From NCBI GenBank assembly GCA_905236715.1, contig CAJOMQ010000012.1:1-64000 (forward strand): DNA of 64,000 nucleotides, in the 5' to 3' direction. The translations under genes and the position numbers were made by a program. Position 1 is the stretch's first letter; the number at the start of each line of letters is the position of its first letter. Positions 41,382 to 45,444 of this stretch are shown in pieces. Below the pieces are notes generated by a model, which was not told where the DNA came from, searched no databases, and worked only from the letters and a program-made list of their open reading frames with translations. The DNA is from an uncultured Bacilli bacterium. Lineage in GTDB: Bacteria > Bacillota_I > Bacilli_A > RFN20 > CAG-826.

Positions 41382-41456
41382 GCTTCCCTAGCTCAACGGC
41401 AGAGCGAGCGGCTGTTAACCGCTAGGTTGAGATATCGTAATTCTCGGGAAGCGCCA
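41382..41456 (+). tRNA. tRNA-Asn (GTT), unusual T-arm
   Basis: Acceptor GCTTCCC/GGGAAGC, D-arm GCTC/GAGC, anticodon stem AGCGG/CCGCT with loop CTGTTAA (anticodon GTT) and encoded GCCA end. The T-arm is irregular: stem GAGAT/TTCTC has a T-T mismatch at the loop side and the loop reads ATCGTAA instead of TTCGAAT, so the T54-A58 pair appears swapped to A-T. It may be functional or a specialised tRNA. Confidence 0.85.
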
Positions 41457-41459
41457 CGT

Positions 41460-41536
41460 GGCCTATTGGAGAAGTGGCTTAACTCACATGCCTTTCACGC
41501 ATGCATTCATGGGTTCGAATCCCGTATAGGTCACCA
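41460..41536 (+). tRNA. tRNA-Glu (TTC)
   Basis: Acceptor GGCCTAT/ATAGGTC with one G-T pair, anticodon stem CATGC/GCATG with loop CTTTCAC (anticodon TTC), normal T-loop TTCGAAT and encoded ACCA. Three bases separate it from tRNA-Asn, so they are co-transcribed. Confidence 0.92.
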
Positions 41537-41578: not shown

Positions 41579-41711
41579 TTTATAAAAATAGTGAAATTTC
41601 TATATTATAAGACAAAGTCTTATGTTATGATATATTTATGTCAAAACATAAGAGACCATTTGATCAAAATTTGCTTATTTGCTTTATCGAATAAATTGTT
41701 TATAATTTAAT

Positions 41712-41878
41712 TGTCAAAGGTGGAAATTCAGCGTAACGACCACGGCGCATTCTTAGGAATGGCACAAAGCGATGCAGGGGGAAACCGAATCCACTTAACA
41801 CCTGGAACGATCTAGTAGTTTCCTTAATTAGGCTGGCCTGCTTGACAAATAATAACATCTCATTTGAGATGTTTTTTT
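41712..41878 (+). ncRNA. unidentified structured RNA, copy A
   Basis: It has its own promoter: TTGCTT (41679-41684), 16 bases, TATAAT (41701-41706); the start falls at TTGTCAAAGGTGG. TTGTCAA pairs with TTGACAA near the 3' end (closing stem). Inside are GTGG/CCAC and CATTC-TTAG-GAATG hairpins. It ends in a perfect ACATCTCA/TGAGATGT terminator with T run. The 5' part (TGTCAAAGGTGGAAA, then CGACCACGGCGCATTCTTAG) recurs at 43080. It could be a small RNA or a riboswitch; I match it to no known class. The stretch 41579-41711 holds its promoter and nothing else clear. Confidence 0.6.
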
Positions 41879-42006
41879 GTTTGATAAACTAAAAATAATT
41901 GGAGTAATTTAAATACTGGTGTTCAGTCGTTGATTAGCAATCTTTATTAAATTTAAATCGCGTTTTGTGGTTTGAAATTCGATGCATTTTTAACTTTTTA
42001 ATAATA

Positions 42007-42039
42007 TAGTTAGTCAACACTAACTAGAAGTGATATAAT
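42007..42039 (+). promoter_or_regulatory. promoter and metal-repressor-like operator of the ZIP gene
   Basis: A perfect 8-bp inverted repeat TAGTTAGT-CAAC-ACTAACTA (42007-42026) precedes TATAAT (42034-42039) and overlaps the -35 position. The pattern resembles DtxR/MntR-family boxes, which fits control of a metal importer; the regulator is not in the window. Confidence 0.55.
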
Positions 42040-42089
42040 CCCTTTTGAAATATTTTTACTATTTGACTTTAATAAAGGAGGTCTAAAAT

Positions 42090-42860
42090 ATGCCAGATTA
42101 TGTCTATCCCTTAATTGGAATCCCTCTCATTTTTATATGTACAACTCTTGGAGCGTTATTTGTTTTTTTCTTTCGAGGAAAAGAAATCTCTCCCAAACTA
42201 AATAAAATCTTTATTGGTTTTGCGGCCGGTGTGATGTTTTCGGCTTCGTTTTTCTCACTAATTAAACCAGCGCTTGAAAGCGAAGTTAGTTATATGCCAA
42301 CTTGGCTAATTGCGGTGATCTCGATTGTTTTAGGTGCTCTTTTTCTTTGGGGCATTGATAAACTTGTCCCACACTTCCACACAAGCGAACAACAAGATGA
42401 AGGTTTGCCATCTAGAAAATTATCGAAAACTTCTAAGATGTTTTTAGCTGTCACTATCCACAATATTCCAGAAGGTTTATCAGTTGGCATTGCCTTTGGT
42501 GTTGCTTTAGCTAACCCAGGAGACCAAGCTTTATTAGTTGGTGCTTTATTGCTTGCGATTGGTATTGGTATACAAAACATTCCCGAAGGCGCCGTGGTTT
42601 CTCTTCCTTTAAAGAGTGAAACTGGATCAAGCAAAAAAGCCTTTGTCTTTGGTATGTTAAGTGGTGCAGTTGAACCAGTTGCCGCCGTCATTGGTTTATT
42701 CCTTGCTATGCAAATCCAAGGAATTATGCCTTGGGCTTTAGCCTTCGCAGCCGGATGTATGATCTACGTAGTCGCGGAAGAAATGATTCCAGAAATGACA
42801 AGCGAAGGTCATGATCACTTTGGTGTCTGGTCATTCATTTTAGGATTTGTATTGCACTAG
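42090..42860 (+). CDS. zupT: ZIP-family metal transporter
   Basis: The protein is 256 aa with about eight helices. HNIPEGLSVGIAFGV (TM4) and NIPEGAVVSLPL (TM5) are the paired metal-binding motifs of ZIP proteins. A His-bearing segment (HFHTSEQQDEG) lies between helices 3 and 4. It should import zinc or manganese/iron. AAAGGAGG precedes the ATG. A perfect inverted repeat over its promoter suggests metal-dependent repression. The symbol is by family resemblance. Confidence 0.88.
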   Translation: MPDYVYPLIGIPLIFICTTLGALFVFFFRGKEISPKLNKIFIGFAAGVMFSASFFSLIKPALESEVSYMPTWLIAVISIVLGALFLWGIDKLVPHFHTSEQQDEGLPSRKLSKTSKMFLAVTIHNIPEGLSVGIAFGVALANPGDQALLVGALLLAIGIGIQNIPEGAVVSLPLKSETGSSKKAFVFGMLSGAVEPVAAVIGLFLAMQIQGIMPWALAFAAGCMIYVVAEEMIPEMTSEGHDHFGVWSFILGFVLH

Positions 42861-43079
42861 ACTGTATTCAGTTATAAAAAATTGTTAATAAACAGCGAAA
42901 GCAAACTTTAATCTATCTTTGTTTAATCAATATCTTAAAAGGACAAAAGAAAAATGAACCGATTATGGCTCCAATTGCCATCTTAGGTTCACGTTTATAT
43001 TCAATATAATTTCTACTTGTTATCAAAATAATTTTCAATCTTTGATTTAAGTGCGCTGACACATTGCTATAATATTATT

Positions 43080-43190
43080 GTCAAAGGTGGAAAGTCGGTG
43101 TTCGACCACGGCGCATTCTTAGTGAATGGAGTCAGCGTTTCAGGATTCACCGCCCTGTTTGATATGAACGTCTCGCTAGAGATGTTTTTA
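43080..43190 (+). ncRNA. unidentified structured RNA, copy B
   Basis: It begins just after an extended -10 (TTGCTATAAT, 43064-43073). It shares with copy A the segments TGTCAAAGGTGGAAA and CGACCACGGCGCATTCTTAG plus GAATGG. Here GTCG-GTGTT-CGAC lies inside GTGG/CCAC, and CATTC-TTAGT-GAATG forms a second hairpin. The middle of copy A (~50 bases) is absent. An ACGTCTC/GAGATGT hairpin with T run ends it 95 bases before the S41 gene. The stretch 42861-43063 holds a further hairpin TGAACC...GGTTCA (42955-42991) and little else. Confidence 0.6.
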
Positions 43191-43284: not shown

Positions 43285-45444
43285 ATGAGAAAAAGTCTGA
43301 TATTACTTGGAATAAGTACTCTAGTTCTTGTTAGCTGCAGTAGCGTTAACGAGAGTCAAGAATTAACACTATATAGAAAATCTAATTTATATATGGAGAA
43401 AAATAATGAAGTGTTCAATTTTCCTTTGTGGACATTTAATCGCAAAGGTGAAGGTAATGTTCCTTATGTCTCATTAAAAGAATTCTTGCCTGCAGTAAAA
43501 TTTATTGATCAAGGATTTAAGACTGTAGAACCAAAATTAGATGTCTCTAATAGTAAAGGTATTTACACCATCAGTTATTCTAGTGGTGAAGGTGAACCTA
43601 TTACCCATCCTTTTGTTTTTGATAAAAATAATCAGACCGTCACCATCAATAAAGAAGCAAAAGCGTTTTATCATCTTTTTTATGATTCCGACCCTAACAT
43701 TGAAACAATGGAATATCTTTATAAACCAGTAGAAGAAAAGAATAGAGATTTTTCTATTACCGATAATCGCGTCATTGATTTAACTAAATATGGTTTAAAG
43801 ATTATTGAACAAGATAATGAATTGTACGCTCCAATTGATTTATATCAAGTGATATTTAAGACTTCGATGTCCCCATCTGGTAATAATCATATTGTTTACA
43901 ATGGTATTGATTATTTTGGATCTAATGGTTCTAGCATCGCGGCATCTTGCTATTCCTCTTCTTTACAATTTAATTTGCAAGAACCAAATATTCTCTTATC
44001 AGTTTTAAAAATAAGTCCCACGATATCGACAAAGCCCGAATTTTCCTTTGCACCTGTAAAACCTGGAGTTAATGAGAAATATCGTTTTGAATCCACGATT
44101 ATTAAAGGTGGTGAATTTACCGTTATTTCAACACTAGAAAAAATTAATATTCCTGATTTCTTCTTACGTTTATCTTTAGATAATAACGGTCAAGGTCGTT
44201 ATGTTTATATCAATAACGATACCAAAGAAGAATTTGAGATAGATAAAGCTTCTCTTATAGACAATAAGACTGTCACTTTCACCGAAGATAATGATTACAT
44301 CAATCTCACTGTTTCTTATCCTAACGCTTTTATCCCTGGTAAGATGCAAGAGATTAAATCATCAATCAATAAGAACAAAACCTTCTTTTTAGAAGAAGAA
44401 AGAAGTAAAGAATACGCTTTATACGACTATAAGATTCTTAGTCTATATTTAGGTGAATATTATGGCCTTGTGCAATCTAATCCGAAAGTTAGAGATTCCG
44501 TTAATTTCTTAAAGCCGTATAAAGAAGAAATATTATCCCCTAATTATCATGATTATCATTTAGGTGTTTCTAAAATGGCGTTAGAAGGCATTGATGATGG
44601 TCATACAAAAGTATTGGGTTTTTCTAAATTCAGTAAAGATGACTTTAATAGCGAAGAAAATCAAGCTGCGATTAATGACATGGTGGGCCCTAGAAGAGGA
44701 AACATATTAAAATATGTCGAATTAGCGGAAGGCTATCGTTCCTCACAAAATTTAGGGCAAGGCTATCAAATCGTTGATGATACCGCTTATCTCACTTTTG
44801 ATTCTTTCTCCGCGACTCCATTAAAACAGTTGAAAGAATATGATGCCGCGCCAGATACATATGTTGATAGAGATACCATTGGCTTTGCTTATACGGCGAT
44901 GAAAGATGTCTCCGCCAATCATCCCGAAGTAAAACGCGTGGTCTTTGATTTATCTTGTAATACTGGTGGTATGGTTCTTGCTTTACCATTCTTATTAGGT
45001 TTAATGAAAAAAGATTTCCATATGAATTCGTATAATTATTACATTAATGATATGTGCCAAAGACATTATCAATTGGATTTAAATGAAAATGGTATATATG
45101 GAGAAGATGAAGATACATATGAAGGTCAATACGATTTCTATGTCTTAACTAGTGGTGCTTCTTTCTCTTGTGGAAATGCCTTCCCAGGCGCCGCGAAATA
45201 CAATAAAGCTGCAAAGATTATTGGTAAAAGATCTGCCGGTGGTGCCTCTGGTGTTGATTATTTCACTTCACCTAGTGGTTTTGATTTAAGATGTTCATCA
45301 TGTATGACAGAAGCCTTTGAATTAGAGGATGGCACTTTTATTGAAAATGACAAAGGTATTCCAGTCGATTTTGAAATAGATGAAGAATATTGGTATAACC
45401 GCACATTGCTCAATAGCAAATTAGACGAAATAGAAAATAATTAA
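43285..45444 (+). CDS. S41-family (tail-specific) protease-like lipoprotein
   Basis: The protein is 719 aa with a lipoprotein signal (LVLVSCSS). The long N-terminal half is unknown and beta-rich. The C-terminal ~250 residues show S41 hallmarks: RVVFDLSCNTGGMVLALPFL (strand plus GG), VLTSGASFSCGNAFP (nucleophile serine region) and GKRSAGGASGVDYFTS. It probably cuts or senses surface proteins. The ATG is weakly preceded by GGAG. It follows structured RNA copy B, which could regulate it. Confidence 0.8.
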   Translation: MRKSLILLGISTLVLVSCSSVNESQELTLYRKSNLYMEKNNEVFNFPLWTFNRKGEGNVPYVSLKEFLPAVKFIDQGFKTVEPKLDVSNSKGIYTISYSSGEGEPITHPFVFDKNNQTVTINKEAKAFYHLFYDSDPNIETMEYLYKPVEEKNRDFSITDNRVIDLTKYGLKIIEQDNELYAPIDLYQVIFKTSMSPSGNNHIVYNGIDYFGSNGSSIAASCYSSSLQFNLQEPNILLSVLKISPTISTKPEFSFAPVKPGVNEKYRFESTIIKGGEFTVISTLEKINIPDFFLRLSLDNNGQGRYVYINNDTKEEFEIDKASLIDNKTVTFTEDNDYINLTVSYPNAFIPGKMQEIKSSINKNKTFFLEEERSKEYALYDYKILSLYLGEYYGLVQSNPKVRDSVNFLKPYKEEILSPNYHDYHLGVSKMALEGIDDGHTKVLGFSKFSKDDFNSEENQAAINDMVGPRRGNILKYVELAEGYRSSQNLGQGYQIVDDTAYLTFDSFSATPLKQLKEYDAAPDTYVDRDTIGFAYTAMKDVSANHPEVKRVVFDLSCNTGGMVLALPFLLGLMKKDFHMNSYNYYINDMCQRHYQLDLNENGIYGEDEDTYEGQYDFYVLTSGASFSCGNAFPGAAKYNKAAKIIGKRSAGGASGVDYFTSPSGFDLRCSSCMTEAFELEDGTFIENDKGIPVDFEIDEEYWYNRTLLNSKLDEIENN

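Follow-up and report, generated by a model that had tools for sequence, protein, structure and literature searches.

To our knowledge, few protein toxins are held by a folded RNA. The classical families of RNA antitoxins have one toxin fold and one gene order in common, and toxins of the BECR/RelE-like kind are otherwise known with protein antitoxins, or as effectors of phages and polymorphic-toxin systems. In the open-access literature, we found no description of a PBECR/BECR toxin that is held by an RNA antitoxin.

In the type III systems ToxIN, CptIN, TenpIN and AbiQ, the RNA gene lies upstream of the toxin gene under one promoter, with a terminator between the two (PMC5086642). Another pair is formed by AbiF and the RCd22 RNA (RF03085), a non-coding RNA which neutralises its neighbouring toxic protein through direct binding (PMC12373285). 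The PBECR RNases, according to the parts of PMC5512222 used here, carry a histidine in a helix and a Ser/Thr in the last core strand.

In the present study, we analysed the window, a stretch of 64,000 nucleotides from an uncultured Bacilli bacterium, and consider it quite likely that the two structured RNAs found there belong to a two-part module, in which the RNA is the antitoxin of an upstream-encoded, predicted BECR-fold RNase toxin, and that both copies have been orphaned in the window. As in the type III systems (PMC5086642), a small pseudoknotted RNA lies beside a small RNase-like protein, the RNA itself is thought to be the antidote, and tandem RNA units occur occasionally; the pseudoknot is here a kissing helix between loops 2 and 4 (L2::L4), and RNA and protein genes are adjacent at 60 of 61 loci. 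Unlike in those systems, however, the RNA lies downstream of the toxin and has a -10 box of its own, its unit is a four-way junction of 88-150 nt instead of repeated H-type pseudoknots of 34-50 nt, single RNA units are the rule rather than a tandem-repeat antitoxin, and the toxin is predicted to be RelE/BECR-like. With AbiF and RCd22 it would share an antitoxin RNA beside a toxic protein, outside the classical type III families and with binding presumed here, whereas AbiF is an Abi_2 protein tied to Cas13-type ancestors, its RNA lies upstream, and the RNA described here is without an Rfam match.

Two copies of a structured RNA in the window

The features of the locus are as follows.

41382-41456, + strand: tRNA-Asn(gtt), first of the tRNA pair marking the insertion site (ARAGORN)
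41460-41536, + strand: tRNA-Glu(ttc), second of the tRNA pair (ARAGORN)
41638-41694, + strand: toxin-gene remnant, ATG and 12 codons (MSKHKRPFDQNL) joined to the gene tail, then a stop (residues match L052, L163 and L164)
41701-41706, + strand: -10 box TATAAT of RNA copy A (sequence; homologue positions)
41711-41848, + strand: RNA copy A, P4-extended type, with P1, P2, P3, P4 and the L2::L4 kissing helix (covariance model R2, covariation)
41854-41878, + strand: intrinsic terminator of copy A (fold z -3.9)
42090-42860, + strand: ZIP zinc transporter gene, a bystander between both RNAs (Pfam Zip 1.5e-25)
42955-42991, + strand: 37-nt hairpin M, left over from a second toxin module (MuF_C-type) that has no toxin gene here (fold z -4.9)
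43068-43073, + strand: -10 box TATAAT of RNA copy B (sequence; homologue positions)
43078-43165, + strand: RNA copy B, short type (covariance model R1, covariation)
43167-43189, + strand: intrinsic terminator of copy B (fold z -4.8)
43285-45444, + strand: S41 peptidase gene, a bystander 3' of copy B (Pfam Peptidase_S41 2.7e-13)

The initial annotation had proposed two copies of a structured RNA, and both are present where it placed them, with cores at 41711-41848 (copy A; 76.8 bits and E 1.7e-18 against model R2) and 43078-43165 (copy B; 88.7 bits and E 4.4e-22 against model R1). The two blocks it had seen in common, TCAAAGGTGGAAA and GACCACGGCGCATTCTTAG, are found as a pair at just two places in the 1.29 Mb genome, against 0 for a reversed-pattern control. 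Each copy has its own promoter and terminator, as proposed: 4 nt separate the end of TATAAT from the first paired base, and directly after P1, the stem into which the outer ends do pair, stands a terminator hairpin with its U-run. The middle differs between the copies, as had been noticed, because copy A carries an additional arm within P4.

These signals recur throughout the family. TATAAT is exact in 69 of 133 homologues (4.2 expected in shuffles), the -10 box lies at one fixed distance in 111 of the 133, and a terminator hairpin with a U-run is found in 112 (12% in shuffles), a conservation which makes it most likely that the RNA starts at P1 and ends at its own terminator.

Members of the family fold into a four-way junction of P1 to P4, in which two loops also pair as a kissing helix. 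P1 has 7 bp, P2 has 4 bp and is nearly invariant, and therefore scarcely tested by covariation, P3 consists of 2 bp plus a 5-bp hairpin, P4 has 5 bp and is flush on P1, and the kissing helix joins loops 2 and 4 by 4 bp. Taken singly, the copies fold no more stably than shuffled sequence does (z -0.8 and 0.1). The structure therefore rests on the covariation of homologues, and the check for compensatory changes suggested by the initial annotation was passed strongly. Among 119 model-fitted homologues, pairing is kept in 95.2% of cells versus 27-48% in slid controls, two-sided changes occur at 23 of 27 pairs, and the cells with two-sided changes number 400 versus a mean of 118 in shuffles. For the kissing helix, pairing reaches 100% of cells in 15 hand-chosen sequences, with two-sided changes at all four of its pairs (4/4), and 93% in the 119 homologues, although their alignment was fitted to P1-P4 alone. 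An insert is present in loop 4 of some members, copy A among them, and in loop 2 of others; the architecture (short, P4-extended or L2-extended) largely tracks the toxin clade, a match that also follows from simple linkage.

Homologues were collected by BLAST first and by covariance model second. Across 224 genomes of the same family, the covariance model gave about 137 matches, up to seven in one genome, with the RNA in 75 genomes at E <= 0.1 (68 with scores >27 bits); the relatives present in public records come from uncultured Bacilli of rumen and gut, entered there as Erysipelotrichaceae or Bacillales. Among 392 phylum-wide genomes, the RNA was found in the same family, plus one weak order-level match (G104) with no toxin upstream. 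The exact 19-base motif was absent from the genome-contig and viral-contig collections searched, and a pattern search allowing three mismatches gave matches mostly by chance. In Rfam release 15, under strict and permissive settings alike, neither copy had a match on the right strand, nor did 16 further loci, and no covariance model matched the family at gathering score. The RNA family is previously undescribed and lies outside known families, as the initial annotation had thought; its reading as a stand-alone structured RNA is supported by the promoter, the terminator, the covariation and the absence from Rfam.

The protein encoded upstream of the RNA

Translation of the flanks revealed an ORF of about 120-130 aa 5' of the RNA in most homologues, with a gap of about 30-45 nt between the two, including intact proteins of 118 aa in L052, L163 and L164. 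The protein depends near-obligately on the adjacent RNA. In a profile search of the 224 genomes made regardless of the RNA, there were 61 protein matches above 80 bits, and at 60 of these loci the RNA lies 21-115 nt downstream (mostly 32-49 nt) on the same strand, the lone locus without it being a contig-end copy with a truncated C-terminus. Furthermore, a divergent protein (L186, 49 bits) is followed directly by an RNA which has another P1 sequence and the same fold, and which scores 22 bits with model R2.

The protein is under purifying selection (dN/dS about 0.1). In the family alignment, H48, H54, D60 and R90 are invariant and T115 is nearly so; H48 lies in a helix (46-51), and T115, kept in at least 90% of sequences, in a strand (110-119). 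An AlphaFold model built with 8 sequences (pLDDT 83, pTM 0.77) has RelE, HigB1, BrnT and YoeB as its nearest solved folds (Foldseek E 0.02-0.2; VIA Z up to 6.3), with ToxN absent from the list of fold matches, an absence which is not proof of another fold. The nearest viral folds are MuF C-terminal domains and polyvalent proteins. In Pfam, PBECR3 reached 2.4e-4 and 21.4 bits, below its cut-off of 30, and MuF_C at best 18.5 bits, below its cut-off of 27.6. We take the protein as a BECR-fold (RelE/PBECR-like) RNase, whose activity is a prediction because the Pfam matches lie below the curated cut-offs and the fold Z is modest (6.3 at best).

The resemblance to the PBECR RNases of phages and polyvalent proteins extends to the arrangement of the histidine helix and the threonine strand, which matches the layout given in the parts of PMC5512222 used here, to the weak PBECR3 and MuF_C matches, and to the MuF C-terminal domains among the structural neighbours. 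The partner protein differs in falling below the Pfam cut-offs, and in that its genes are solo, chromosomal and each accompanied by a partner RNA, an arrangement that those parts of PMC5512222 do not describe. The toxin protein was absent from the viral contigs, phages and plasmids searched, and among 395 genomes of the class it was found in the same family only. Most loci of PBECR4 and of the MuF_C type, which are further BECR-clade proteins of these genomes, are without the RNA, so that the link of the RNA to its partner protein is a specific one.

One-sided loss and competing explanations

The protein lies at most 400 nt upstream in 70 of the 137 RNA matches; at the remainder it is missing or reduced to fragments, several of them with stops. 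An intact protein next to a broken RNA was not seen among the loci examined. One-sided loss of this kind is what a protein harmful to the cell in the absence of the RNA would lead one to expect. The window offers an example: the 12 residues at the start of the remnant 5' of copy A (MSKHKRPFDQNL) are those of the intact proteins in L052, L163 and L164, their codons run into the sequence found after the gene in relatives, and the distance from the ATG to the RNA is 73 nt, compared with about 0.4 kb in L052. Most of the toxin gene has been deleted here, while promoter, RNA and terminator are intact, and a profile search found no copy of the partner protein in the window's own genome. Most likely, then, the two RNAs of the window are orphaned antitoxins that have outlasted their toxin.

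Against the antitoxin reading it must be said that about half of the RNA matches are without a toxin, as would also be the case if the RNA had an independent function, and that the gene order is opposite to that of the classical type III systems. The many orphan RNAs that keep promoter, terminator and structure, as well as the up to seven matches per genome, would suit a free-standing regulatory sRNA, or a substrate or cofactor of the RNase in an RNA-processing operon that would account for the linkage; and processing would be needed by the tandem copies of a few loci, which lie 1-13 nt apart with neither promoter nor terminator between them. Nevertheless, we regard this explanation as unlikely, since a protein repeatedly broken or deleted beside an intact RNA shows the pattern of a toxin and not of a helpful enzyme, since the intact protein never occurs without the RNA, and since the neighbours of its fold are toxins.

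The genes 3' of the RNAs, ZIP and S41, to which the initial annotation had looked, are incidental, because downstream genes vary among genomes; the informative neighbour is the gene that relatives have upstream and that the window has lost. This bears on the idea of a riboswitch or attenuator acting on the downstream gene, which a terminator directly after an aptamer-like fold could suggest and to which we give very little credence: the downstream genes are unlike in every genome, often absent or convergent, the conserved neighbour is the upstream one, tandem and orphan copies are common, and the terminator and P1 have no strand in common, so that no switch is evident. Hardly credible, too, is a type I antitoxin that base-pairs with the toxin mRNA, for although an RNA antitoxin beside a toxin gene would suit it, the RNA here lies downstream on the same strand, and its complementarity to the toxin start (-19.6 kcal/mol) is no greater than that to non-cognate (-19.2) and shuffled (-19.7) regions (53 pairs).

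Returning to the antitoxin reading, we picture a module in which the toxin gene comes first and the RNA just downstream on the same strand, with a strong RNA promoter that overlaps the end of the toxin gene. Through its separate promoter, its start at P1 and its own terminator, the RNA could be made in excess of the toxin. The four-way junction, locked by the kissing helix between L2 and L4, would most likely bind the toxin and block its active site, and if the RNA ran short, the toxin would be freed. The module may serve in phage defence or in addiction.

The shape of the RNA deserves a comparison with tRNA. Both are four-way junctions, and the arms of the RNA (7, 4, about 5 and 5 bp) have tRNA-like counts, some of the lengths being fixed by the model and the hand-aligned set showing the same; the 2-nt link between P1 and P2, arm 4 flush on arm 1, and the contact of loop 2 with loop 4 are likewise tRNA-like. 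Unlike in tRNA, the loop contact is a helix of 4 bp, and extra base pairs lie under arm 3. No T-loop signature was seen in the RNA, and ARAGORN and the Rfam tRNA model called only the two neighbouring tRNAs and neither RNA copy. We tentatively raise the possibility, which we hold to be well short of even, of a tRNA-shaped decoy antitoxin that would fill the active site of a tRNA-cutting BECR-fold toxin; such a pair would explain the arm counts and the loop contact.

The insertion site and neighbouring modules

A tRNA-Asn/tRNA-Glu pair precedes RNA/toxin modules in nine of ten relatives checked, and the toxins behind the pair vary among genomes; this site is a hot spot of turnover. In the window, copy B adjoins the leftover hairpin of a MuF_C-type toxin module, M, whose position relative to the RNA is identical in L036, L087, L092, L166 and L170.

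Hairpins of the M type, 37-45 nt long, lie directly 3' of several MuF_C-type (BECR-clade) toxin genes, with base changes that preserve the stems. Besides the window (42955-42991), they were found at L264, L267, L253-L259, L262, L265 and L266, doubled in tandem in L264 and L267, and M may be a second family of RNA antitoxins. L264 (G000:C21:7424-7912) belongs to the window's own genome; there, two M hairpins lie between the gene of an intact MuF_C-type protein and a helix-turn-helix-like gene. Further MuF_C loci (L261 and L263) have different repeated elements. As a general second partner of the RNA, the MuF_C-type protein was rejected, most of its loci being without the RNA and several having a hairpin of their own.

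PBECR4 was likewise rejected as a general partner, with one protein 22 nt before the RNA and the other inspected loci without it. The one case, L095/L218 (G242:C44), is a full-length PBECR4 protein (Pfam 7e-19) standing in the usual toxin's place. At L240 (G054:C91), direct repeats with GGAAAGATCGTCGGACC lie 3' of a PBECR4 gene and are possibly repeated RNA units. The window's genome has PBECR4 genes with internal stops at G000:C2:91-570 and G000:C8:38400-38972, and a third, intact one at G000:C1:164312-164875.

Additionally, at L187 (G061:C3), where the RNA of the main family is missing, another putative structured RNA, closed by an 8-bp stem (TGTGATAA/TTATCACA), lies 3' of a distant toxin relative. 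At L158 and L169, orphan RNAs follow genes of type II toxin-antitoxin systems (a YafQ toxin and an MqsA-like antitoxin) at a distance of 6 nt.

If the antitoxin reading is true, the antitoxin fold and the toxin clade (predicted to be BECR/RelE-like) would both be new, the gene order would be opposite to the classical one, and an RNA family of uncultured gut bacteria would be given a function; the loci would also provide a clean natural record of how a toxin is lost and its antidote kept. The hairpin at MuF_C-type toxins is a hint that RNases of this sort may have RNA partners more often than is now recognised.
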